From IMG/VR virus record IMGVR_UViG_3300047557_003487, positions 1-64,000 of that record: a stretch of DNA of 64,000 bases, one strand, 5' to 3'. This document shows, one piece after another, positions 3,949 through 62,628 of the stretch (its first letter is position 1; each line of letters opens with the position of its first letter). The position numbers and the translations under genes are program-made. Below the pieces are notes generated by a model, which searched no databases, was not told where the DNA came from, and saw only the letters and a list, made by a program, of their open reading frames with translations. Origin of the DNA: a virus.

Positions 3949-3955
3949 TATTTAT
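3949..3955 (+). promoter_or_regulatory. TATTTAT motif upstream of gene at 3960
   Basis: The 7-mer lies 5 nt before the ATG, directly after the stop of the glycosyltransferase. It belongs to the recurrent set described in the findings. Confidence 0.45.
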
Positions 3956-3959
3956 TGTT

Positions 3960-4337
3960 ATGGAATTTTATATCAAGAAAAACGCCACTCTCCCAGTATT
4001 AAAAATGCAGGTAGTAAAAGATGGTAGGGCGGGTTATATTCAATTTATGGATGCTTTGGAAATCTCAACAATTTTTTTCACGATGATTGAGGTTGAGACT
4101 GGCATTCCAAAGATTGTGTCTGCACCATGCGAGATTGTTAACTTGATATTGGACCCAGGTGCTCCTGCTGAGTATTATATTTATTTCAAATTTTCTTCAA
4201 GGGATACAGACACAGTAGGAAGATATCAGGGACAATTTTTGATTAAGAATGACGAAGGAAATCTGATTCTACCTATCAGAGAAGAACTTTATATTAATAT
4301 CCAAGACAGTTTTATTTCTGAAACTGCGTGTTGTTAG
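3960..4337 (+). CDS. unrecognised small virion-like protein
   Basis: The best start is ATG 3960, giving 125 residues that begin MEFYIKKNATLP; an upstream in-frame ATG at 3906 would lie inside the previous gene and is disfavoured. The sequence is beta-rich with no catalytic motif. The C-terminal half contains VGRYQGQFLIKNDEG and LPIREELYINIQDSF, a pattern seen in Ig-like or BppU-type N-terminal domains of phage tail and decoration proteins. It ends with a Cys pair (ACC). A TATTTAT element 5 nt upstream groups it with the tail genes rather than with the glycosyltransferases. A structural role is inferred only from fold resemblance and the motif. Confidence 0.5.
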   Translation: MEFYIKKNATLPVLKMQVVKDGRAGYIQFMDALEISTIFFTMIEVETGIPKIVSAPCEIVNLILDPGAPAEYYIYFKFSSRDTDTVGRYQGQFLIKNDEGNLILPIREELYINIQDSFISETACC

Positions 4338-4431: not shown

Positions 4432-7155
4432 ATGTACACTCACGAAGAAATTGAGTCGTTCCTAACAGGAAACGACCCCGAAGAATTTATAGTTGCCATC
4501 GAGTTTGACTACGTTTCAAACTCTATCTTCAAAATCAAAGAAATTCCTGGTAAAGGAAAAGAAATCCGCAAAGACACGTTTATCCCTTTTGCTTGGGTCG
4601 GAGACCTAAGAGGTTTGAACTTCTATAATGATTCTAAAATGGCTCAGAAAGAAGCCATGACTAAGTATGGAATTGTTATTGAAAAATTGGAAACTATGGA
4701 TAACGAACGCCTTCAAAACGGTTTGACCTATATGGTTAAGTCTCTTAAAGGTTATCGTGAACTTATTCAATTTTTCAGAGATGGGGGTTGTGACCCTTGG
4801 GGTGATAAAGCAAAAGAAAAGATTTCAATTTTACCTCCCGTAGAACAATATTTAATTTCCAAAGAAAAAAGATTATTCAAAGGTTTTACGGATTATGATG
4901 AAGTGACTCGTCTTGTATTCGACTTAGAAACTGATGCTCTTGACCCTAAAGATGGTCGAATATTCATGATTGGAATCAAAACCAACAAAGGATATCATAG
5001 GGTCATTGAGTGTCTTGATGAGTCACAAGAAAAAGGTGCGATACTTGAATTTCTGAATGTTATTGACCAAATAAAACCATCTATCATTGGTGGTTACAAC
5101 TCAGCAAACTTCGACTGGCACTGGATTTTTGAGAGGGCTCAAAGACACGGAATTGATATGAGAAAAGCTGTAAAATCTTTACACCCCCAACATTCATATA
5201 CAAGAAAAGATAGTATGTTAAAACTCGCTAACGAAGTAGAGGAGTTTTTACAAACATCTATATGGGGGTACAATGTAATTGATATTATCCACGCGGTTCG
5301 TAGAGCTCAAGCAATCAACTCTAACATCAAAGCCGCGGGTCTTAAGTATATTACAAAATTTATTAACAAAGAGGCACCTGACCGTGTTTACATTGAACAT
5401 ACTGATATTGGTAAGTTATATAGAGAAAAAGAAGAATATTGGTTAAACACTCAAAACGGAAAATATAAGAAAGCTTCTGAGTATCAGGATTTAGATATTA
5501 AGTTTCCTGGCGTCTACATTAAAACAACAGGAGATAACTTGGTTGAGAGATATCTTGATGATGACTTGGAAGAAACTTTGGCTGTTGATAAAGAGTTCAA
5601 CCAAGGTTCATTCCTACTTGCGGCAATGATTCCAACTACGTACGAGAGGGTTTCCACTATGGGTACTGCAACTCTATGGAAGATGCTTATGCTTGCATGG
5701 TCTTACAAACACAAACTCGCTATTCCCGCTAAACAATCGAAGACAGACTTCGTAGGAGGTCTTTCCCGACTACTTAAGGTGGGTTATAGTAAGAACGTAC
5801 TGAAGCTCGACTTCTCGTCTCTATACCCTTCTATTCAGCTTGTACACGATGTTTTCCCCGACTGTGATGTGACGGGTGCGATGAAAGGTATGCTTAAGTA
5901 TTTCCGTGATACCCGTATTCGATACAAACAACTTGCCGAAGAATTCGAAAAGACTGACCCTCAGAAATCTGCGTCATATTCAAACAAACAATTACCGATT
6001 AAGATTTTCATTAACTCAATGTTCGGAGCCTTATCGGCACCTCAAGTATTTGCTTGGGGGGACATGTATATGGGGGAACAAATCACTTGTACAGGTCGTC
6101 AGTACCTTCGTCAAATGATTAAGTTCTTTATGTCTCGTGGTTACATTCCACTTGTAATGGATACGGACGGTGTAAACTTCTCAAGTCCTGACGATGCCGA
6201 TACTCACCATTATGTTGGTCGTGGTTTAAATTGGAAAGTTAAAGCGGGTAAAGTTTATAAAGGACCTGAAGCAGATGTTGCAGAATACAATGATATATTC
6301 ATGAGAGGAGAAATGGCTCTTGATACAGATGGTGTTTGGCCATCATGTATAAATCTTGCCAGAAAAAATTATGCTGTTATGGATGCGAAGGGTAAGATAA
6401 AATTGACTGGCAATTCCATCAAGTCAAAAAAACTCCCTTTGTATATTGAGGAGTTTTTGGATAAAGGGGTTAAGTTATTATTGAATGGTCAGGGTAAGGA
6501 GTTCATTGAATATTATTATGAGTACCTTCAGAAAATATTTGACCAAAAAATCGCCTTGTCCAAGATTGCTCAGAGAGCTAAGGTTAAGTTGACGATGGAT
6601 GATTATGTTAAAAGACTAACTCAGAAGACCAAAGCGGGAAATCAAATGTCTCGTATGGCACACATGGAGTTGGCTTTACAAGCGGGTATTGGTGTTAACC
6701 TAGGTGATGTTATTATGTATGTTAATAACGGAGTAAAGGCGTCTCACGGTGATGTTCAGAAAAAAGGTGATGGGGTACAAATCAACTGTTATATGTTGGA
6801 TGCTAACATATTGGAGAATAATCCCGATATGACTGGTGAGTACAATGTCCCAAGAGCGATTGTGACTTTCAACAAAAGAATTGAACCGTTACTCGTTTGT
6901 TTTAAACAAGATGTAAGAGACCAACTTTTAGTTACTGACCCCTCAGATAGAGGAATATTCACAACAGAACAATGTGAACTGATAAACGGAATGCCTTTTG
7001 AAGATGGGGACCAAGACAAGTTAGATGAAGACGTACTTCAAATTACTGAAGCAGAATTAAAATATTGGGAAAAAAGAGGTGTAAAACCTGATTATATCTA
7101 CGACTTAGCCGAACAAGGTTGGGAAAGGAAATTAGGATTGTTTGAGTCCGTCTGA
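4432..7155 (+). CDS. 43: family B DNA polymerase, T4 gp43-like
   Basis: The replicative polymerase of the phage, 907 residues against 898 in T4. The 3'-5' exonuclease domain has Exo I at FDLETD (D164, E166) and Exo II-type GGYNSANFDWHWI near 218-231. The polymerase palm has motif A DFSSLYPS near 459, motif B KIFINSMFGALS near 525 and motif C MDTDGVNF (D577, D579), all catalytic carboxylates present. Motif C reads DTDGV rather than the common DTDS. No intein or frameshift interrupts it. Its leader (4371-4424) can form hairpins. Its 3' end overlaps by 24 nt the end of a convergent minus-strand gene. It would act with gp32, the gp41-like helicase and other replisome parts encoded at 36-41 kb. 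Confidence 0.97.
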   Translation: MYTHEEIESFLTGNDPEEFIVAIEFDYVSNSIFKIKEIPGKGKEIRKDTFIPFAWVGDLRGLNFYNDSKMAQKEAMTKYGIVIEKLETMDNERLQNGLTYMVKSLKGYRELIQFFRDGGCDPWGDKAKEKISILPPVEQYLISKEKRLFKGFTDYDEVTRLVFDLETDALDPKDGRIFMIGIKTNKGYHRVIECLDESQEKGAILEFLNVIDQIKPSIIGGYNSANFDWHWIFERAQRHGIDMRKAVKSLHPQHSYTRKDSMLKLANEVEEFLQTSIWGYNVIDIIHAVRRAQAINSNIKAAGLKYITKFINKEAPDRVYIEHTDIGKLYREKEEYWLNTQNGKYKKASEYQDLDIKFPGVYIKTTGDNLVERYLDDDLEETLAVDKEFNQGSFLLAAMIPTTYERVSTMGTATLWKMLMLAWSYKHKLAIPAKQSKTDFVGGLSRLLKVGYSKNVLKLDFSSLYPSIQLVHDVFPDCDVTGAMKGMLKYFRDTRIRYKQLAEEFEKTDPQKSASYSNKQLPIKIFINSMFGALSAPQVFAWGDMYMGEQITCTGRQYLRQMIKFFMSRGYIPLVMDTDGVNFSSPDDADTHHYVGRGLNWKVKAGKVYKGPEADVAEYNDIFMRGEMALDTDGVWPSCINLARKNYAVMDAKGKIKLTGNSIKSKKLPLYIEEFLDKGVKLLLNGQGKEFIEYYYEYLQKIFDQKIALSKIAQRAKVKLTMDDYVKRLTQKTKAGNQMSRMAHMELALQAGIGVNLGDVIMYVNNGVKASHGDVQKKGDGVQINCYMLDANILENNPDMTGEYNVPRAIVTFNKRIEPLLVCFKQDVRDQLLVTDPSDRGIFTTEQCELINGMPFEDGDQDKLDEDVLQITEAELKYWEKRGVKPDYIYDLAEQGWERKLGLFESV

Positions 7156-7468: not shown

Positions 7469-8596
7469 TTAGATTACATATATTTGACGAGGCATTGCTC
7501 TAAACTTCATTTGTTTATTTAAGTTCTCTGCAATTAAAGCCTCTCTTTCCATTACTTTTTCAGGTCTCAATCTTGATAGCCACCCGTTTTCACCGATTAA
7601 TTCCTCTAATAATTTGGTCTTTTCGTCTTTAGCTTCAGTTAAAAGACTTGTATAGTCCATCGTAATTTCTGAGTCAGGTGTTTTAAGATTACCACTATAC
7701 TTACCACGAACTCTTGCTAATGTTTCTTTACAATATGCGGTAAACCATCTTCTAATCCACTGTTGACCAGGAACGTTTATATCTTCCCAACTTAAATTTT
7801 CGATTGGAACATCGGTTGGTAATTTAATAATATCAGGATTGTTTTTCAAACAATCGGCTCTACTATCAGGTTCAACATCATAATACCAATACCAAACTGC
7901 TTTACCAGCGTAAAGACTATAGTTATTCCAATTGAATCTACCACCAGGAGTATTGTACAAATGAACTAATTTCTTACCATCAGGTAATCCTGTGATTCTG
8001 TAAGTAAGTGAACCACCTAATATTCTATTGAGGATGTTTGCTTCTTGCATTCTAATCAGATAGTCAAAGCCAGACATCATAAAGTATGAACCTTGATATC
8101 CCATTTGAGCATATCCTGCTTCATTAGCACCCAAACCAATACCACCAAATCCAAATCCACCAACACCACCCAATCCAAAAGCGGTCCAGGGTTGGTTACT
8201 GAACCATAATAGTTCGTTTACCTCACGACCAGCAGGAATTTCGTAATCTTGTTTGTTTTTTTCTAAAATAAAATAATCCTTTTTCAGAACCCAAGGACCT
8301 ACTGTTTGTAGACCTACAATTTTTGAATATGAATACGCGAACTGTTGTTCAAAATCCATAGTTCTTGTTACAAGCGCTCTTGCAACGGATTTTTCGTTCA
8401 TGTTTAAATTTACGAGGTTAACCCATTGAGAGTCAATTAACCACTGAAGAACATATTCTTCATAGTCTCCTATAGATAACTCCATAAGAGAATCCATCAT
8501 CTCATCCTCAAGTTCAACACTTCTGAGAGGTGCACCCAAGAGATGTTTGATTCTTGTGTATATCCTACTTCTTTCTGGTTCTGGTAATGCTGCCAT
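7469..8596 (-). CDS. unrecognised 375-residue protein, probably structural
   Basis: The N-terminus has HLLGAPLRSVELEDEMMDSLM and WLIDSQWVNLVN, helical segments of the kind found in phage connector and neck proteins. Residues 142-162 are strikingly glycine-rich (GLGGVGGFGFGGIGLG), followed by an aromatic region (YQGSYFMMSGFDY) and RWFTAYCKETLARVRGKYS near 290. No enzyme motif is seen. A TATTTAT motif on the minus strand lies 7 nt before its start, as with the tail genes, which supports a late, structural role. It forms a tight pair with the 111-residue gene downstream. A portal-proximal or neck function is possible but not shown. Confidence 0.6.
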   Translation of the reverse strand: MAALPEPERSRIYTRIKHLLGAPLRSVELEDEMMDSLMELSIGDYEEYVLQWLIDSQWVNLVNLNMNEKSVARALVTRTMDFEQQFAYSYSKIVGLQTVGPWVLKKDYFILEKNKQDYEIPAGREVNELLWFSNQPWTAFGLGGVGGFGFGGIGLGANEAGYAQMGYQGSYFMMSGFDYLIRMQEANILNRILGGSLTYRITGLPDGKKLVHLYNTPGGRFNWNNYSLYAGKAVWYWYYDVEPDSRADCLKNNPDIIKLPTDVPIENLSWEDINVPGQQWIRRWFTAYCKETLARVRGKYSGNLKTPDSEITMDYTSLLTEAKDEKTKLLEELIGENGWLSRLRPEKVMEREALIAENLNKQMKFRAMPRQIYVI

Positions 8597-8602
8597 ATCT
8601 TA

Positions 8603-8609
8603 ATAAATA
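8603..8609 (-). promoter_or_regulatory. TATTTAT motif (minus strand) upstream of gene ending at 8596
   Basis: On the minus strand the 7-mer lies 6 nt before the ATG of the 375-residue gene, within the 19-nt gap after the SOD-fusion gene. This shows that the motif follows gene orientation. Confidence 0.5.
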
Positions 8610-8615
8610 TTCAAT

Positions 8616-10154
8616 TTATTCTATTTCGTGTAATAAAGAATTGATGTTAAAAACATACTGGTCTTTATCACTTATTGGGTCATTCTTGAATATAAGTATC
8701 TTATTAGTTTTTGGATTAGAGAAAATTAACCAATCAACTTTGTATGATTTAACATTTCCTGTATCCATTAACTTAATTTCGTCATCAGCGATTACAAGAT
8801 TTGAAAACGGTTTAACTTGAGCGGAATATTCTGTTCCATCCAAATTAATTTTCATATCAATTCCTTTAAAGGCATCCATCTTAGCACCATGTGAACCAAT
8901 CTTTTCCACTTTCGCACGACCTTCAAAATAATCTTCAATTTTTTTGTTTGCGTTGTTTTCAGATTTTTGTCCTCTATCCCAAAGTTTTTTCAAAACTCTG
9001 ATGATGTTTAAAAAATCCTCATTGTTTTTAGTAAAAATATCGTCTTTGAAATGGTCCAATGCGACTATGAATCTGGCAGTCTCTTTCGGATTCCTTTTTT
9101 CTTGTTTCCAAAAATGAAACTTTTTTTCTGGTTTACCTATATTATCAATTTGTTTGTTAACCGCTTTAACTAACAGACAGAATGCGTTGAAGTTAGTGTT
9201 CAGGTTGTTTAGTATAGACCTGCCTTCAGGCGATTCGACCCCATAAAATCCAGACATTTCTTCTGTTGTTCCATCGACCCACCATTGTGAAAATTTCTTC
9301 TTCAGAACATATGTAACTCCGTCTTGATATATTTTTTTTATTTTGAAGTTATTAATTAAATCTCTATAATAGATTACTTCTTTCGGACTACAGAATTGTG
9401 GTTCGTCAGACTCAGTCAAAAGTTTCTGAAAATTTCTAGATTCGAGAAGCTTTGTTTCCGTTTTCATTTCATACATCTTCGTAACAAAATCCCAGTTAAC
9501 AACTTTCCAAAAGTTGGAAATGTATTCATCTCTTTTGTTTCTATATTTCAAGTAGTACGCATGTTCCCATAAATCTAAACCAAGTAATGGAAACCCACCA
9601 CCTTCAATCACATTCATCAAAGGATTGTCTTGGTTTGGTGTGGACATTATTTTTAACGTGTTCTTAGATGTTAGAACTAACCAAACCCAACCAGAACCAA
9701 ATCTTTCTTTGGCAATTGTTTCAAATTTTTTCTTGAAACTCGTGAAGGTTCCGTATTGTTTGGTTATTTTGTTGTAGAGTTCCCCTGTTAATTTTTTTGG
9801 TGTTGGGGTCAACATGTTCCAAAAAAGTGCGTGGTTAAAAGCCCCTCCTGCGTTGTTTCTTACTACTTGGTCATATCGACTTATGTTTTTAACAATTTTT
9901 TCTAAGTCTAAATCTCCGTGTTTTTTCTTTGATAGGGCTGCGTTTAATTTATCTACATAGCCCTTATAGTGTTTGTTGTAGTGGAAATTCATCGTTTCTG
10001 CATCGATAAATCCTTTGAGGGCTGAATAGGAATATGGTAGTTTTTCTATTCCAATTTTCTTCATTTCGGTAATCAACAATTGTTTCTCTGTTTCGATATG
10101 GTTTTCGGTAATTTGTTTTTCAATTTGTTGAATCCTTTCTTCAATTTTCTTCAT
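8616..10154 (-). CDS. Mn/Fe superoxide dismutase domain fused to C-terminal nuclease-like domain
   Basis: The protein has 512 residues. A short coiled-coil-like N-terminus (1-33) is followed by a complete Fe/Mn SOD domain (about 38-228). All four metal ligands are visible: H58 (MNFHYNKHY), H108 (FNHALFWN), D194 and H198 (LDLWEHAYY). FGSGWVWLV and NFWKVVNWDF are further signatures. NNAGGAFNH and NQDNPLM match the MnSOD pattern, so manganese is the likelier metal. The family converts superoxide to oxygen and hydrogen peroxide. Residues 230-512 are unlike any SOD; near the end GIDMKI followed by SAQVKPF resembles a PD-(D/E)xK nuclease core, with Q in place of E. A TATTTAT motif 22 nt upstream suggests late expression. 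The fusion is unusual; the SOD call is firm, the nuclease call tentative. Confidence 0.88.
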   Translation of the reverse strand: MKKIEERIQQIEKQITENHIETEKQLLITEMKKIGIEKLPYSYSALKGFIDAETMNFHYNKHYKGYVDKLNAALSKKKHGDLDLEKIVKNISRYDQVVRNNAGGAFNHALFWNMLTPTPKKLTGELYNKITKQYGTFTSFKKKFETIAKERFGSGWVWLVLTSKNTLKIMSTPNQDNPLMNVIEGGGFPLLGLDLWEHAYYLKYRNKRDEYISNFWKVVNWDFVTKMYEMKTETKLLESRNFQKLLTESDEPQFCSPKEVIYYRDLINNFKIKKIYQDGVTYVLKKKFSQWWVDGTTEEMSGFYGVESPEGRSILNNLNTNFNAFCLLVKAVNKQIDNIGKPEKKFHFWKQEKRNPKETARFIVALDHFKDDIFTKNNEDFLNIIRVLKKLWDRGQKSENNANKKIEDYFEGRAKVEKIGSHGAKMDAFKGIDMKINLDGTEYSAQVKPFSNLVIADDEIKLMDTGNVKSYKVDWLIFSNPKTNKILIFKNDPISDKDQYVFNINSLLHEIE

Positions 10155-10176
10155 GTATTGGAGTTATTTGTTTTAT

Positions 10177-10183
10177 ATAAATA
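10177..10183 (-). promoter_or_regulatory. TATTTAT motif (minus strand) upstream of SOD-fusion gene
   Basis: The minus strand reads TATTTATATAAAA here, the same extended sequence as before the genes at 22323 and 35476. It lies 22 nt before the SOD-fusion ATG. Confidence 0.5.
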
Positions 10184-10206
10184 ACTCGTTGTTCTTTTAA
10201 TGTCTT

Positions 10207-10422
10207 TCATTTTTGGATTTTTTCATAGATATCACTGAAAGTTGGGAGGGCTAATGTGTTATGATGATATATTATTTTTCCGTCTTCTGAAAAACTTGTG
10301 ATTGTGATTGTATCCCCTTCGGACACGTTTGCTAGTAATTTGTTTGATATTCTGTCTGAAATAATTTTTATCTCATCACCGACTTTTAACTCAACATTTT
10401 GGTGATTGATTATTCTATCCAT
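10207..10422 (-). CDS. small SH3/KOW-like hypothetical protein
   Basis: A 71-residue protein beginning MDRIINHQNVELKVGDEIKI. The stretch VGDEIKI...VSEGDTITITSFSEDGKIIY looks like a small SH3-like or KOW-type beta barrel with regularly spaced Gly and Asp turns. It lies 9 nt downstream of the SNF2 gene on the same strand, so it probably belongs to the SET-SNF2 operon. No active site is seen. It may be a nucleic-acid or protein-binding accessory factor; that is inferred from the fold resemblance only. Confidence 0.6.
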   Translation of the reverse strand: MDRIINHQNVELKVGDEIKIISDRISNKLLANVSEGDTITITSFSEDGKIIYHHNTLALPTFSDIYEKIQK

Positions 10423-10431
10423 TAAAAAATA

Positions 10432-12192
10432 TTATGGTCTCAGTTCATTAATTCTTTTTAGAATTTCTTCCGCAACATCACCTCCTCCGAGGTTGTCTCC
10501 CATAACTGTTGCGATTACTTGTTTTTTGTTATTTAAGATATCATAAATAACACCCTCGATAGTATTTTCAAAGATAGGATAATATACAAGTACGTTGTTT
10601 TTTTGACCAAATCTATATGCTCTGTCTTCGGCTTGTGAGTGGTCTGATGGTAAAAAAGACAAGTCGTTCATAATAACAGCTTCCGCAGCCGTTAGAGTTA
10701 AACCAACACCAGCGGCTTTTATGTTACCAACAAAAACTTTGATTTTTTCGTTTTCTTGAAATTGGTCAACACTGAACTGTCTATCTTGTTTGGTCATTGA
10801 CCCGTCAACCTTAACTGCGGATTTACCAAAGTGTTCAACTATTTGGTTGAGTGAATCTGTAAAATTACAAAAAATGATTACTTTTTTTCCTTGTTCCAAA
10901 ATGTTCTCAGCCAATTCTATGGTTTGAGATATTTTTTCATTTGCAATCACCTGTCTTACTTTTGTTAGTTTGGTGAATTGAACTGTTAGTGATTTAGATT
11001 CATCAGGGTTTTTATCATACCAATTATAATATTCACCCATCAATTCTTCATAGTCTTTGGATTTCAACCTAAGATAAACAGGTGTGATTATTTTATCAGG
11101 TAAATCTAAAACATCTTCTTTTAATCTTCTCGTTATCGTGTTTGAAGTTCTTTCTCTTAATTCCTCCAAATTTGATGAACCCATTACATTCCAAACTTTT
11201 CTTGCACCAACTTTGAATTGATACCCACTACAATATCTAATAACATATGCCATCCAATTTTTTGCAACGGGAGAGTCAACGAGACTCAATAAGTTATAAT
11301 AGTCAATTGGTCTCGAGGTCATAGGTGTACCTGTTAATAACCAAAGTCTATCAACTCTTTTCACTATATCGTTGATTAGTTTAGTTCTTTGGGCTTGAGC
11401 ATTTTTGATATAGTGTGCTTCATCAACGACCACCAAATCAAAATTGGAAGCCAAAATTTGAGAATCATCTTTCTTCTTAGAGTCATGGAAATTTTTTAAT
11501 ATGTCGTAGTTTATTATAACAAAGTCGTGTTCAGTACTAAAATGTTTACCTTCAGCAATGTATATTGTCCTGTCTGAATAATTTTCAATTTCTCTTTTCC
11601 AATTTATCTTGAGTGTGGCGGGGCAAATGATTAATACCTTTTTAGCACCAGATTCTAAAGCGGCAATGATAGTAGATGTGGTTTTACCCAAACCCATGTC
11701 GTCTGCCAAAATATATTTTTTGTTTTCCACAAGTTTTTGGATTGCTTCTTTTTGGTGTGCCAGTGGAGGTCTTTTCGAATACTTTTCATAATTGATTACA
11801 ACATCTTTAACGGTGTTGTCTTTTATAATAGAAGCTTTAGGTAACCAAAAATCATGAAACTGTTCTGTTTCCCAAACTCTACCCCAAATGTGATATGCTT
11901 TATCCTTTTCTGCCAATAACTTTTCTACCCAAACCCTTTGCGGAACTTCGGTGTATAATTTATCATCAGCAAGTTTTTGTGCGAAATATGCATCAAGAAT
12001 CACCCACTTCTTTGCAACTTTTGGTTGTTTGTCGTGGTTGTTAATTATATATTCAGATTGATTTCTTGTTGGGTAAAACTTTTTGTTGACTTGAGACTTT
12101 CGTTTTAACTCCAATATATAATTGTTCGCTCCTTCATAATTTTCAAGTAGCGAAATTGCTTTTGATTCTAATGATATTTCTGTTGAACTCAT
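10432..12192 (-). CDS. SNF2-family DNA-dependent ATPase/helicase
   Basis: The protein has 586 residues with the full superfamily 2 SNF2 motif set. Motif I is DDMGLGKT (164-171), motif Ia LIICPATLKINWKRE (187-201), motif II DEAH (257-260), motif III LTGTPM (286-291), motif IV KVIIFCNFTDS, motif V GVGLTLTAA and motif VI QAEDRAYRFGQ. It resembles the SMARCAL1-type annealing-helicase group more than T4 UvsW. Residues 1-130 form an N-terminal extension of unknown fold. Its ATG overlaps the stop of the SET-domain gene (ATGA), indicating coupled translation. In phages such enzymes probably remodel recombination or replication forks; displacing bound host proteins is another possibility. Confidence 0.93.
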   Translation of the reverse strand: MSSTEISLESKAISLLENYEGANNYILELKRKSQVNKKFYPTRNQSEYIINNHDKQPKVAKKWVILDAYFAQKLADDKLYTEVPQRVWVEKLLAEKDKAYHIWGRVWETEQFHDFWLPKASIIKDNTVKDVVINYEKYSKRPPLAHQKEAIQKLVENKKYILADDMGLGKTTSTIIAALESGAKKVLIICPATLKINWKREIENYSDRTIYIAEGKHFSTEHDFVIINYDILKNFHDSKKKDDSQILASNFDLVVVDEAHYIKNAQAQRTKLINDIVKRVDRLWLLTGTPMTSRPIDYYNLLSLVDSPVAKNWMAYVIRYCSGYQFKVGARKVWNVMGSSNLEELRERTSNTITRRLKEDVLDLPDKIITPVYLRLKSKDYEELMGEYYNWYDKNPDESKSLTVQFTKLTKVRQVIANEKISQTIELAENILEQGKKVIIFCNFTDSLNQIVEHFGKSAVKVDGSMTKQDRQFSVDQFQENEKIKVFVGNIKAAGVGLTLTAAEAVIMNDLSFLPSDHSQAEDRAYRFGQKNNVLVYYPIFENTIEGVIYDILNNKKQVIATVMGDNLGGGDVAEEILKRINELRP

Positions 12193-12584
12193 TTTACATC
12201 TACGTGTGTTCTGCCGTCAGACCAATAATTTTCATCTCCATAGTAGATAAAAATTTCCTCCCCTTTCTTAATTGGTTTAGTTGAAAAGAATATGAATGTT
12301 TTGTTTTCAACATCGTTAGTCCAGTTCGCGTTTGGTGTGTTGGAGTGGTTGTAAAGTGACCCATAACCTAAAGCGACAACGAAGTTTTGCCAATCGTCTG
12401 TTCTTGGCCATTGGAATGCGTAATCTACAAGTGTGTAGTTAATCTCTCCTCTTTTTGCTGGAAGAAACAAAACAGGACATACCTCGATTATCTCATCTTT
12501 ATTTATGTCTTGAGTTGCAAATACACCCCAACCGTGTATTGGACTCTCTTTAAATTGTACCTTTTGTTGTGTTTTGTTTTCCAT
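12189..12584 (-). CDS. SET-domain protein, putative lysine methyltransferase
   Basis: A compact 131-residue SET domain. It has the N-terminal HGWGVFA (17-23), the pseudoknot-forming GYGSLYNHSNTPNANW (73-88) with the invariant NHS for S-adenosylmethionine binding, and KKGEEIFIYYGDENYW (106-121) with the catalytic-type tyrosines. There are no pre-SET or post-SET cysteines, as in small bacterial and viral SET proteins. The expected reaction is SAM-dependent methylation of a protein lysine; the target is unknown. The stop overlaps the SNF2 start by 4 nt. The gene is first in the minus-strand operon and has a sigma70-like promoter at 12594-12623. Confidence 0.88.
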   Translation of the reverse strand: MENKTQQKVQFKESPIHGWGVFATQDINKDEIIEVCPVLFLPAKRGEINYTLVDYAFQWPRTDDWQNFVVALGYGSLYNHSNTPNANWTNDVENKTFIFFSTKPIKKGEEIFIYYGDENYWSDGRTHVDVK

Positions 12585-41433: not shown

Positions 41434-43296
41434 ATGGACATTTCGAACAGAATTTTATCAGACATTACAGTGTACATGAAGTACGCGAAGTACATGCCTG
41501 AACTCAAGAGAAGAGAGACTTGGCAAGAGCTAGTTACAAGAAACATGGAGATGCATATTAAAATGTATCCAAAATTAGAAAAAGAGATTAGAGAGAATTA
41601 TCAGTATGTTTACAAGAAACAAGTATTACCCTCAATGAGGTCGATGCAGTTCGCTGGTAAACCTATTGAAATCTCACCAAACAGAATTTACAACTGTGCG
41701 TTTGCGCCGATTGATGATTGGAGAGTATTTTCAGAAATTATGTTCTTACTTTTAGGTGGAACAGGAGTTGGTTATTCAGTTCAAAAACACCACGTTGATG
41801 TTTTACCTGAAATCAGAAAACCAAATAAAGAAAGAGGAAGAAGATGGTTAGTTGCTGACTCAATTGAGGGTTGGGCTGACGCAGTTAAAGTATTAGTTAA
41901 ATCTTACTTCTTTGGTGGTTCACACATTCAGTTTGATTTCAGTGATATCAGACCAAAGGGTGCAAGACTTGTAACCTCAGGTGGTAAAGCTCCTGGTCCT
42001 CAACCATTGAAAGAGTGTCTTATAAAACTTGAGGGTATTTTAGACTCAAAAGAAGACGGTGAAAAACTATCTCCAATCGAAGTTCACGACATCGTTTGCC
42101 ATATTGCAGACGCTGTACTTGCAGGTGGTATTAGAAGAGCGGCACTTATTTGTTTGTTCTCAGCAACAGATGAAGATATGATTGGTAGTAAGAGTGGTTC
42201 ATGGTGGGAAACAAATCCACAAAGAGGTAGAGCTAACAACTCAGCAGTTCTTATGAGACACAAAATCACCAAAGAGTATTTCATGGAGTTGTGGAAAAGA
42301 ATTGAAGCAAGTGGAGCTGGTGAACCAGGTATTTACCTATCAAACGACAAAGATTGGGGAACTAACCCTTGTTGTGAAATTGCACTTAGACCTTTCCAAT
42401 TCTGTAACTTAACTGAGGTTAACGTATCAAACGTGGTATCTCAAGAAGATTACGAAGACAGAGTAAGAGCAGCTTCATTTATCGGAACATTACAGGCAGG
42501 ATATACAGACTTCCATTATCTCAGACCAATTTGGCAGAGAACAACTGAAAAAGATGCTCTTGTTGGAATTTCAATGACGGGTATCGGTTCAGGAGCAGTC
42601 TTAGGTCTTAACATGAAATCCGCTTCAAAAGTTGTTAAAGAAGAAAATGAAAGAGTTGCTAACTTAATTGGTATCAATAAAGCGGCAAGAACCACAACTG
42701 TAAAACCAGCAGGTACTACCTCTTTAACATTGGGTACATCATCAGGAATCCACGCTTGGCATAACGATTACTACATCAGAAGAGTTAGAGTTGGTAAGAA
42801 CGAATCAATCTACACCCATCTCAAGGAAAATCACCCTGAGTTAGTAGAAGATGAATACTTTAGACCTCACGACACTGCGGTAATTAGTATTCCACAAAAA
42901 GCACCTGAAGGGTCTATTCTAAGAAATGAATCACCAATTCAATTACTTGAAAGAGTAAAGAAGGTTCAACAAGAATGGATTAGACCTGGTCATAGAAGTG
43001 GTTCAAATGCTCACAACGTATCTGCAACAATTTCTATTCGTGAACACGAATGGCCAGCTGTAGGTGAGTGGATGTGGGAAAACAAAGAACACTACAATGG
43101 TCTATCTTGTCTACCCTACAACGGTGGAACATACGTACAAGCACCTTTCGAGGACTGTACAAAAGAAAAGTATGAGGAATTGATGCTCACTCTTAAAGAC
43201 GTTGATTTGTCTAAAATTGTTGAGAATAATGACGAGACTGATTTGAGTGGGGAACTTGCATGTGCAGGAGGTGCTTGTGAGATTACATTAGTATAA
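41434..43296 (+). CDS. nrdJ: class II (adenosylcobalamin-dependent) ribonucleotide reductase, monomeric type
   Basis: A 620-residue reductase. The active site is NPCCEI (C313 as likely thiyl-radical Cys, E315), with redox cysteines C88 (NCAFAPI) and C324 (FCNLTEVN). The C-terminal pair C610/C615 (LACAGGACEITLV) would pass electrons from thioredoxin or glutaredoxin. PAGTTSLTLGTSSGIH near 430 is the conserved phosphate-binding loop. No NrdB partner is present, and the short form resembles monomeric B12-dependent RtpR/NrdJ enzymes. Most T4-like phages carry the class Ia pair instead. It supplies deoxynucleotides for phage replication and depends on host cobalamin. The second Cys of NPCCEI replaces the usual Gly. 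Confidence 0.88.
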   Translation: MDISNRILSDITVYMKYAKYMPELKRRETWQELVTRNMEMHIKMYPKLEKEIRENYQYVYKKQVLPSMRSMQFAGKPIEISPNRIYNCAFAPIDDWRVFSEIMFLLLGGTGVGYSVQKHHVDVLPEIRKPNKERGRRWLVADSIEGWADAVKVLVKSYFFGGSHIQFDFSDIRPKGARLVTSGGKAPGPQPLKECLIKLEGILDSKEDGEKLSPIEVHDIVCHIADAVLAGGIRRAALICLFSATDEDMIGSKSGSWWETNPQRGRANNSAVLMRHKITKEYFMELWKRIEASGAGEPGIYLSNDKDWGTNPCCEIALRPFQFCNLTEVNVSNVVSQEDYEDRVRAASFIGTLQAGYTDFHYLRPIWQRTTEKDALVGISMTGIGSGAVLGLNMKSASKVVKEENERVANLIGINKAARTTTVKPAGTTSLTLGTSSGIHAWHNDYYIRRVRVGKNESIYTHLKENHPELVEDEYFRPHDTAVISIPQKAPEGSILRNESPIQLLERVKKVQQEWIRPGHRSGSNAHNVSATISIREHEWPAVGEWMWENKEHYNGLSCLPYNGGTYVQAPFEDCTKEKYEELMLTLKDVDLSKIVENNDETDLSGELACAGGACEITLV

Positions 43297-61011: not shown

Positions 61012-61018
61012 TATTTAT
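61012..61018 (+). promoter_or_regulatory. TATTTAT motif upstream of Thr/Pro-rich gene
   Basis: The 7-mer lies 17 nt before the ATG in a 75-nt gap. Confidence 0.5.
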
Positions 61019-61035
61019 AAAATAAAAAACCGCGG

Positions 61036-62628
61036 ATGTCCACTTTATATTCAGTTTTCGTTGTAAATAATGCCTCAGGTTGCAATACTGAAATTGAACA
61101 ACAACTCACAGTCACAGGTTGTACGACTTATATCATTAGATTATCTCAGAATTCTAACGCTTTAGGTCCTTTTGATGTTTTTTATAGTTTATATCCGACT
61201 CCTTTATCTGGTGCCACTTTAGTAGCTTCTGCACAAACAAGAACTCAAATGTTCAACGGAGTTGTACTCGAATTGGAATGTACAACACCAACTCCTACAC
61301 CAACAGTAACACCACAAACACCAACCCCAACTCCGACTCCGACCACAACTACAACACTTACAGCTACGCCTTCTCAAACACCAACTGAAACACCTGCATT
61401 AACTGCAACTCCGACCGAAACACCAACAAGCACTCCATCAGAAACACCAACTGAAACACCAACAAGTACTCCAACTAATACTCAAACGCCAACTACGACC
61501 ACAACACCTGGTCTTACACCTACTGCAACTCCGCAAGAAACTCCTTCATCGACACCAGCAGTTACTGCGACACAAACACCAACAACAACTCAAACACCTT
61601 CTCCAACAGTTGGAACAGTAACAATCGTAATAACGGGTTCATATTCTTCAGGTTCAATCCAAGCAGGGTATTCGGCGGTATCTAACACTGCTTTAGATGT
61701 TGATACTGAAATTAGTTTTGTAAACACCCTTGAAACATTCTCAGGTAGTCCATACGTGATAAGTGGTTCTGTTTCAATTCTTTCAGGACAGACAACAGGA
61801 TTCAGTAATTACATAATACCTGGAGATTACGCAGATTTAAGTGATGTGAGTTCTTTCTCAGGTATTTCACAAACATTTACAGGAAGCTCGACTTATACAT
61901 ACGTGATTCAAACTACATCTGAGTTTGATGTTACACCTACACCAACTCCAAGTATAACGGCTTCACCTACCGCGACTCCTAATGCAAGTCCAGCGGAGAC
62001 TCCTACACCTACCGCAACACCAACAACTACTACCACATTAACTGCAACTGAAACACCTACGCCAACTCAAACTCAAACGCCAACAACTACTACCACATTA
62101 ACTGCAACTGAAACACCTACGCCAACCCAAACTCCAACTCCTGAACCAACGCCGACAACGACACCAACCGCATCGAGAAATTATTGGGAATATACGTTTG
62201 GATATGACGCGACAGTAGCACTTAATGCATGTTCGAACTACTCTTCTTCTCCAACAACATATTATGGAGCACCTGGTGACGGACCTGGACCAAACATTGG
62301 AGAGGTTCTTTACTCTGACTCTGCTCTTACAACACCTGTTCCTAATGGATATTACTCAAACGGAGTGGCTTGGTATCAAGTAACAGGAGGGGCTGGTGTG
62401 GTAACAAGCCAAGACCCTAACGGATGTCTTTTATCTCCAACACCAACACCTACAGAGACAGCAACACCAACACCATCGGTAACTGAAACACCAACAGGAA
62501 CACCTTCGGTGACTTCAACACCAACACCTTCACCAACGTCAGATTTGGTAATTTATATCATAACACAAGATGGTATTGAATTGATTACACAAGACGGTAT
62601 AAACATTATCAGCCAACAATCGCCTTGA
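61036..62628 (+). CDS. Thr/Pro-rich linker protein with small globular domains
   Basis: A 530-residue protein. Residues 1-80 form a small Cys-bearing domain ([20 protein letters not shown]). Two long linkers of TPTPT/ETPT type (about 85-195 and 300-377) flank a globular domain at about 195-295 ([20 protein letters not shown]). A third domain ([20 protein letters not shown], about 378-470) precedes a last linker, and the end is [20 protein letters not shown]. Such linkers are rigid and often O-glycosylated in bacterial secreted proteins; glycosyltransferases do lie at the window start. It is likely a long stalk-like fibre. A 60-bp tandem duplication lies within the second linker. Confidence 0.75.
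62020..62139 (+). repeat. 60-bp tandem duplication in Thr/Pro linker
   Basis: 62020-62079 and 62080-62139 are direct repeats, identical over the first 46 bases and differing first at 62067/62127. They encode consecutive 20-residue linker units. Confidence 0.85.

Follow-up and report, generated by a model that had tools for sequence, protein, structure and literature searches.

A conserved gene of T4-type jumbo phages joins a superoxide dismutase to a nuclease-like module behind a covarying hairpin

Introduction

In bacteriophage T4, a late promoter lies inside a hairpin at the translation start of gene e and of I-TevI, and the starts of soc and of gene 49 are also hidden in a helix (PMC3014915). 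The T4 prohead protease gp21 cuts after L/I-x-E (PMC9026906). Superoxide dismutases (SODs) have already been annotated as stand-alone proteins of jumbo phages, in Vibrio phage 2.275.O (189 aa) and in Pseudomonas phages Callisto and PA5oct (182 aa), so that the view of an initial annotation of the present DNA, that SOD genes are uncommon in tailed phages, needs to be corrected.

The gene described here lies in a 64,000-nt stretch of viral DNA (positions 1 to 64,000 of IMG/VR record IMGVR_UViG_3300047557_003487), referred to below as the window. Like the stand-alone proteins it places an Fe/Mn SOD domain in a large phage; however, those proteins are less than 30% identical, have no C-terminal domain and lie in another gene neighbourhood. 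Phage SODs and PD-(D/E)XK nucleases are both known kinds of protein, whereas their combination and its regulation are new to us and to the literature that we searched. That search found neither an SOD–nuclease fusion nor a virion SOD in a tailed phage, and we know of no earlier case of an SOD joined to a DNA nuclease or of a virion SOD in a tailed phage. The fusion had been called unfamiliar from the sequence alone; it is indeed absent from the searched literature, but it is not unique to this phage.

Results

The fusion gene is conserved in domain order and in position

The gene and its neighbours are arranged as follows:
8616..10154, minus strand: fusion gene of an SOD and a putative nuclease, 512 aa (from the open reading frame and about 270 IMG/VR loci)
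7469..8596, minus strand: head-tail adaptor Ad2 or neck protein gene, downstream (PHROG 211), with its own TATTTAT at 8609
10207..10422, minus strand: ORF of 71 aa that separates the helicase gene from the fusion gene; function unknown, no clear family
10432..12192, minus strand: DNA helicase gene, upstream (PHROG 62, E 5e-115)

The fusion ORF is intact, with its ATG at 10154 and its stop at 8616, and encodes a complete Mn-type SOD followed by a C-terminal part of 283 residues. The SOD preceded the C-terminal part in all of the approximately 270 loci fetched from IMG/VR (duplicates counted; a few are cut by contig ends), and the C-terminal module was missing from no relative fetched. Even a query with the C-terminal part alone returned only SOD fusions among the loci fetched, so the homologue search proposed in the initial annotation recovered the same fusion every time. 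One search confirmed 379 of 382 pattern matches and two others gave at least 580 and at least 507, from which we estimate that the family counts at least several hundred relatives in IMG/VR. Their identity to the window protein runs from 99% down to about 57%, and the largest contigs (317–321 kb) belong to T4-type jumbo phages. The fusion is old.

Its position is similarly fixed: the neck gene lies directly downstream at all 249 loci where this is visible, and the helicase lies upstream at 231 of 232. A SET-domain (lysine methyltransferase-like) gene is found nearby in the window (12189-12584, minus strand; Pfam E 4e-19) and is present upstream in 105 of the 232 loci.

The N-terminal half is an Mn-type SOD

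9477..10049, minus strand: Mn-type SOD domain, residues 36–226 (from Pfam, invariance in 133 proteins and PDB fold matches)

Pfam assigned residues 36–115 to Sod_Fe_N (E 1.6e-22) and residues 123–226 to Sod_Fe_C (E 1.3e-39), both above the Pfam cut-offs. The metal ligands named in the initial annotation, H58, H108, D194 and H198, are invariant in 133 distinct homologous proteins, the set over which all residue invariance was counted, as are H62, Y66, W156, Q175, E197 and Y201, which include the gateway His/Tyr and the outer-sphere Gln. Q175 lies within NQDNPLM and a Gly occupies the FeSOD Gln position, features that mark the Mn type by sequence; the PDB fold matches of the domain were MnSODs or cambialistic SODs. 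We consider the identity of the N-terminal half as an SOD, already proposed from the sequence alone, to be certain, while dismutation and the bound metal are inferred.

With the Mn-type members of the Fe/Mn SOD family (SodFM; Geobacillus and Staphylococcus MnSOD, Bacteroidota SodA) the phage domain shares the full active site, Gln175 and the Gly. In contrast to cellular SodFM proteins, it carries a helical N-terminal extension of 30 aa and the C-terminal nuclease module, and it falls in a separate clade. The nearest cellular SODs are mostly from Bacteroidota; identity to Bacteroidota SODs is at most about 57%, and this along only part of the domain. In a phylogenetic tree the fusion SODs form one long-branched phage clade apart from the Bacteroidota SODs. 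Because these branches are long, the donor of the SOD cannot be named. No enrichment of Shine-Dalgarno-like sequences was seen (16 of 268, compared with 24 in a control window); since in addition the nearest cellular SODs are mostly from Bacteroidota, we infer that a Bacteroidota host is likely. In the 'phages' collection, several of the best SOD matches fell in unannotated or bacterial-looking records (OR845917, OR851122, MW462191 and others). MW462191 carries aminotransferase and efflux genes, and records of both sorts were left out as phage evidence.

The C-terminal half is most likely a nuclease

9015..9404, minus strand: helical domain of the nuclease module, residues 251–380 (from alignment, model and a stand-alone homologue)
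8619..8972, minus strand: PD-(D/E)XK-like core, residues 395–512, with E399, D427, G431, D433 and Q446-x-K448

The first suspicion of a nuclease had rested on a GID...QVK pattern. This pattern is present (residues 431–433 and 446–448), and E399, D427, G431, D433, Q446 and K448 are each invariant in 133 of 133 proteins; the helical domain has its own invariant residues, C255 and GRS..N.LN.N. With E399 on helix 1, D433 on strand 2 and Q446-x-K448 on strand 3, the residue pattern of PD-(D/E)XK enzymes is complete. QxK variants occur among Mrr-type PD-(D/E)XK nucleases. Sequence profiles gave less: no curated family matched residues 229–512 above threshold, Pfam being silent past the SOD, no family-level PD-(D/E)XK profile match was obtained, and profiles of the C-terminal part found only chance matches in the PDB. 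Some members alone gave weak profile matches, to PADLOC PD_DExK (0.0025), DUF6602 (9e-4) and phrog_5018 (8e-5), and also to EcoO109I. None of 81 C-terminal pattern matches in GTDB genomes was confirmed, so this method revealed no cellular homologue.

An AlphaFold model of the C-terminal part, built from 74 diverse aligned sequences, reached a pLDDT of 84 and superseded a poor full-length model from 16 sequences (pLDDT 59). In it, the helical domain is followed by a long helix that bears E399 and by a mixed sheet that bears D433 and Q446-x-K448; a second core helix, as is usual in PD-(D/E)XK enzymes, is not clear. When the model was compared with the PDB using Foldseek, each of the top 15 matches was a nuclease or a nuclease complex. 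I-Ssp6803I, the SPARDA nuclease and Hjc ranked highest, and RecU was also among the fold matches. The leading PD-(D/E)XK matches had probabilities near 1 but weak E-values (0.016–0.2); this structural check, which the initial annotation had suggested, therefore ranked PD-(D/E)XK enzymes first, if only weakly by E-value. The module, as modelled, shares with I-Ssp6803I, Hjc, RecU and the SPARDA nuclease the order of the core and the E/D/QxK residues, and differs from known PD-(D/E)XK enzymes in having no family-level sequence match, an extra helical domain and a fused SOD.

Among predicted viral structures (BFVD), the best match was A0A6J5L953, a 501-aa protein named 'superoxide dismutase [uncultured Caudovirales phage]', which aligned with the whole C-terminal model (TM 0.77, E 2e-17). 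Because the match spans the whole model and the protein is named an SOD, A0A6J5L953 is probably the same SOD–nuclease fusion; it is 28% identical and labelled as an SOD only, its nuclease half having gone unrecognised. The second match, A0A8D9CCA0, is a 1113-aa marine phage protein that covers the same C-terminal module. In the 735-kb phage LR756501 the module is a separate gene of 290 aa (hhalign 97.7%, E 1.4e-12), with the E, D and QxK residues aligned and the helical domain also present. A 251-aa gene of the 634-kb phage LR745206 (L275:3494-4249, plus strand) likewise contains the core (E 8.5e-9). No relatives of the stand-alone nuclease of the 735-kb phage were found in IMG/VR. Since the module occurs without an SOD, the simplest reading is that its fusion with an SOD took place in this lineage. 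Two further observations concern these phages: a SET-like ORF, read by eye, adjoins the stand-alone nuclease of the 735-kb phage (L274 5275-5712, minus strand), and the 251-aa protein of LR745206 begins with MKKFTEYIKES, which resembles a T4 capsid-targeting sequence.

The structure comparison of a predicted model, the invariant E/D/QxK residues and a stand-alone homologue with the same residues thus support the earlier guess, and the C-terminal half is most likely a nuclease, although the activity is inferred and there is no biochemical proof. Mean column conservation over the 133 proteins is 0.91 for the SOD and 0.62 for the C-terminal part. Because the SOD and the nuclease residues are alike invariant in this set, both inferred activities are probably under selection.

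A late-promoter-like motif lies within a covarying hairpin

10161..10187, minus strand: hairpin GAGTTATTT-ATATAAAAC-AAATAACTC, ending 6 nt before the ATG

The TATTTAT reported before the gene was located at 10183–10177, where it forms part of the 5' arm and loop of this hairpin. Among 86 distinct motif-bearing leaders, 68 pair at all seven of seven positions, and the arms have undergone compensatory exchanges (GGA/TCC, 48; GAG/CTC, 12; GGG/CCC). When arms were swapped between sequences, a mean of 38 and a maximum of 47 still paired 7/7, and shuffling left 2.9. The length of the loop varies, which fits an RNA structure; in some relatives the hairpin is incomplete. The arrangement matches that of T4, with a late-promoter-like motif in the 5' arm of a hairpin at the start of the fusion gene.

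In the 321-kb relative (G001), TATTTAT occurs on the same strand at most about 40 nt upstream of the ATG in 99 of 323 genes, with a peak 5–9 nt before the ATG and few copies in the opposite orientation (Fisher p 2e-13), so the motif before the fusion gene is not a chance occurrence. In the window it precedes tail sheath, tube, baseplate and neck genes, and a sigma factor gene is present in the lineage (PF04542, E 2.5e-16). Late expression of the fusion gene, as first proposed, is well supported by this lineage-wide distribution, with promoter activity itself inferred from sequence. Comparable stems are the exception in G001, where about 6 of the 99 genes with the late motif have one. The peak at 5–9 nt suggests near-leaderless late mRNAs. 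At 8609, 43494 and 62663 of the window, TATTTAT is merely 5–6 nt from the ATG, which suggests leaderless late mRNAs. A second late gene, of unknown function (530 and 495 aa), has TATTTAT in a strong hairpin directly before its ATG (window 61012-61036, plus strand; G001 5456-6943, minus strand), and at 3949-3960 of the window (plus strand) the motif lies in a perfect hairpin (AACAATA...TATTGTT) just before the ATG of a 125-aa ORF.

Sites of prohead-protease type mark the domain borders

10065..10154, minus strand: N-terminal helical extension, residues 1–30, ending in a conserved [L/I]28-x-E30-M31, which may be a site for the prohead protease
9405..9470, minus strand: linker, residues 229–250, with L236-x-E238^S and [LI]246-x-E248^(S/G)

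AlphaFold predicts, with low confidence, a helix at residues 2–33 of the extension. A substrate motif of gp21 type, [L/I]-x-E^, is present at residues 28–30, 236–238 and 246–248. [LIM]xE is conserved at these three places and at only one other, the buried SOD metal site DLWEH; the three sites outside the SOD (30, 238 and 248) lie at domain borders and stand within otherwise variable stretches. E238 is kept in 133 of 133 proteins and E248 in 131. Conservation of the two linker motifs was seen among 101 distinct linkers. A relaxed double-site pattern matched 132 of 133 linkers against 177 of 7905 internal windows, and a strict one matched 83 of 133 against 7 of 7905.

The strict pattern also occurs at 11 of 234 N-termini of G001, against 0.15 in shuffles, and the late motif is more frequent for proteins of this phage with the relaxed N-terminal element (27 of 48, compared with 72 of 275; p 6e-5). 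This N-terminal element could be a capsid-targeting signal shared by many packaged proteins. Dozens of G001 proteins open with a related element, for example M..IIRLTESDLIRLVKKVIKEQ or MKYIITESQYNFLLEQ, that ends in a hydrophobic pair-x-E(Q/S/G); ORFs that bear it (loci L276-L292) include 199373-199729, 206721-207713 and 215492-216007.

Both relatives of 317–321 kb encode a T4 gp21-type protease (PF03420) and a gp23-type capsid protein (PF07068). The latter has HLINE^ASS near its N-terminus, at about the position of the T4 gp23 cut site. The fusion protein has in common with the T4 internal head proteins that carry capsid-targeting sequences its [L/I]-x-E^ sites and a gp21-type protease in the phage lineage; in contrast to them, its two-site element is internal, between two enzymes, and not N-terminal. 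The likeness of the linker to the N-terminal elements is one of motif and proves neither homology nor cutting. [L/I]xE is short, the first site precedes Met31, and with the element internal the likeness to capsid targeting is loose. Packaging, which had been raised as a possibility, appears plausible from the conserved sites at the domain borders, but it has not been demonstrated: cleavage and packaging are both inferred, without virion proteomics or cleavage data. The initial annotation had missed these sites, the covarying hairpin around the motif and the fixed position between helicase and neck gene.

Discussion

The explanation that we prefer, tentatively and with the feeling that it is nearly as apt to be right as wrong, is that the gene encodes a late, head-assembly-associated, hairpin-gated and prohead-processed bifunctional protein of T4-type jumbo phages, an SOD with a DNA-processing nuclease. 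The N-terminal half would be an active Mn-type (or cambialistic) SOD, and the PD-(D/E)XK nuclease would process the DNA of the phage at about the packaging stage, with branched DNA as its most likely substrate, as for T4 gp49. RNA reading through from the helicase gene may fold into the hairpin and hide the region of the start codon, whereas late transcripts, starting at the TATTTAT promoter within the hairpin, would lack the 5' arm and be translated, so that the nuclease would be made only late. The prohead protease would then cut at the [L/I]xE^ sites at 30, 238 and 248 and so separate the SOD from the nuclease within or at the head. The two enzymes could remain in the virion, the SOD guarding the DNA or the entering genome against superoxide. 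In its full form, the proposal is that a globally common jumbo-phage lineage packs the antioxidant enzyme and the nuclease into its heads as one polyprotein, which the prohead protease cuts in the head and of which the virion carries the products. This is a serious possibility on which we would hesitate to insist; if true, it would provide the first tailed-phage virion SOD known to us.

T4 gp49 (endonuclease VII) offers a functional parallel, as a late nuclease whose start is hidden by a hairpin on early RNA, and with it possible junction resolution. Endonuclease VII has a His-Me finger fold, which differs from the one predicted for the fusion nuclease, and the two are not homologous. In two relatives, whose completeness as genomes is not stated, there was no match to five Pfam families, Endonuclease_7, RuvC, Hjc, RecU and RusA, and no TnsA-like packaging nuclease of T4 gp4 type (PF08722) was found in two relatives. 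In the absence of a PF08722 nuclease the fusion could fill that packaging role, and since neither a tested resolvase nor a TnsA-like nuclease was found, a resolvase or packaging role is attractive, although function is inferred. A reading as Holliday-junction resolvase rests on the fold likeness to Hjc and RecU and on the absence of the tested families, and junction cleavage is an inference.

These same observations would serve an enzyme that acts late in the cytoplasm and is never packaged or cut, with the nuclease as the packaging or Holliday-junction resolvase of the lineage beside the helicase, the SOD serving for stable dimerization and for local protection, and the motifs of the linker being mere helix residues. 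Hairpin-gated late expression like that of T4 gene 49, the neighbouring helicase, the presence of Hjc and RecU among the fold matches and the lack of any other tested resolvase family agree with it, as does a review of jumbo phages that describes REase-fold proteins reminiscent of resolvases in phages without a known resolvase (PMC7824862). It leaves unexplained why [LI]xE is conserved exactly at both domain borders and why many other late proteins have an N-terminal element that is similar to the linker, and we consider it possible but on balance unlikely. An auxiliary metabolic gene, with an SOD that reduces the superoxide level of the infected cell and a C-terminal DNA-binding or repair module that has little role of its own, seems improbable to us. 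The fully conserved catalytic residues and the higher mean conservation of the SOD would fit such a gene, other jumbo phages carry stand-alone SODs, and for Microcystis blooms an Fe/Mn SOD has been suggested to be an auxiliary gene of viruses (PMC12542629); yet the nuclease residues are equally invariant, no relative fetched lacks the C-terminal module, and a metabolic helper is not usually encoded by a late, hairpin-gated gene next to a neck gene.

Lastly, the nuclease might be injected as a weapon that cuts host or rival DNA in the next host with the SOD acting against an oxidative response at entry. Protease-type sites and the likeness to capsid-targeting elements leave room for this, T4 ejects its internal proteins and can package foreign nucleases by the same route (PMC9026906), and SOD is among the virion-packaged enzymes of giant viruses (PMC9405923). 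However, there is no clear match to any defence-type family, and the neighbouring genes point to DNA processing and neck assembly and not to host takeover, which makes this account very doubtful.

On our preferred reading of a processed head-associated protein, one conserved gene would link the removal of superoxide to the processing of phage DNA. The lineage is present in many metagenomes and widespread in aquatic settings. Such a link suggests that large phages shield their DNA from oxidation at one particular point during assembly or entry. The T4 hairpin switch for late genes would be extended to a distant lineage that probably infects Bacteroidota, and the N-terminal [L/I]xE element marks candidate packaged proteins genome-wide. 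The window also encodes, at 41434-43296 on the plus strand, a ribonucleotide reductase that matches the insertion domain of the B12-dependent (class II) type.
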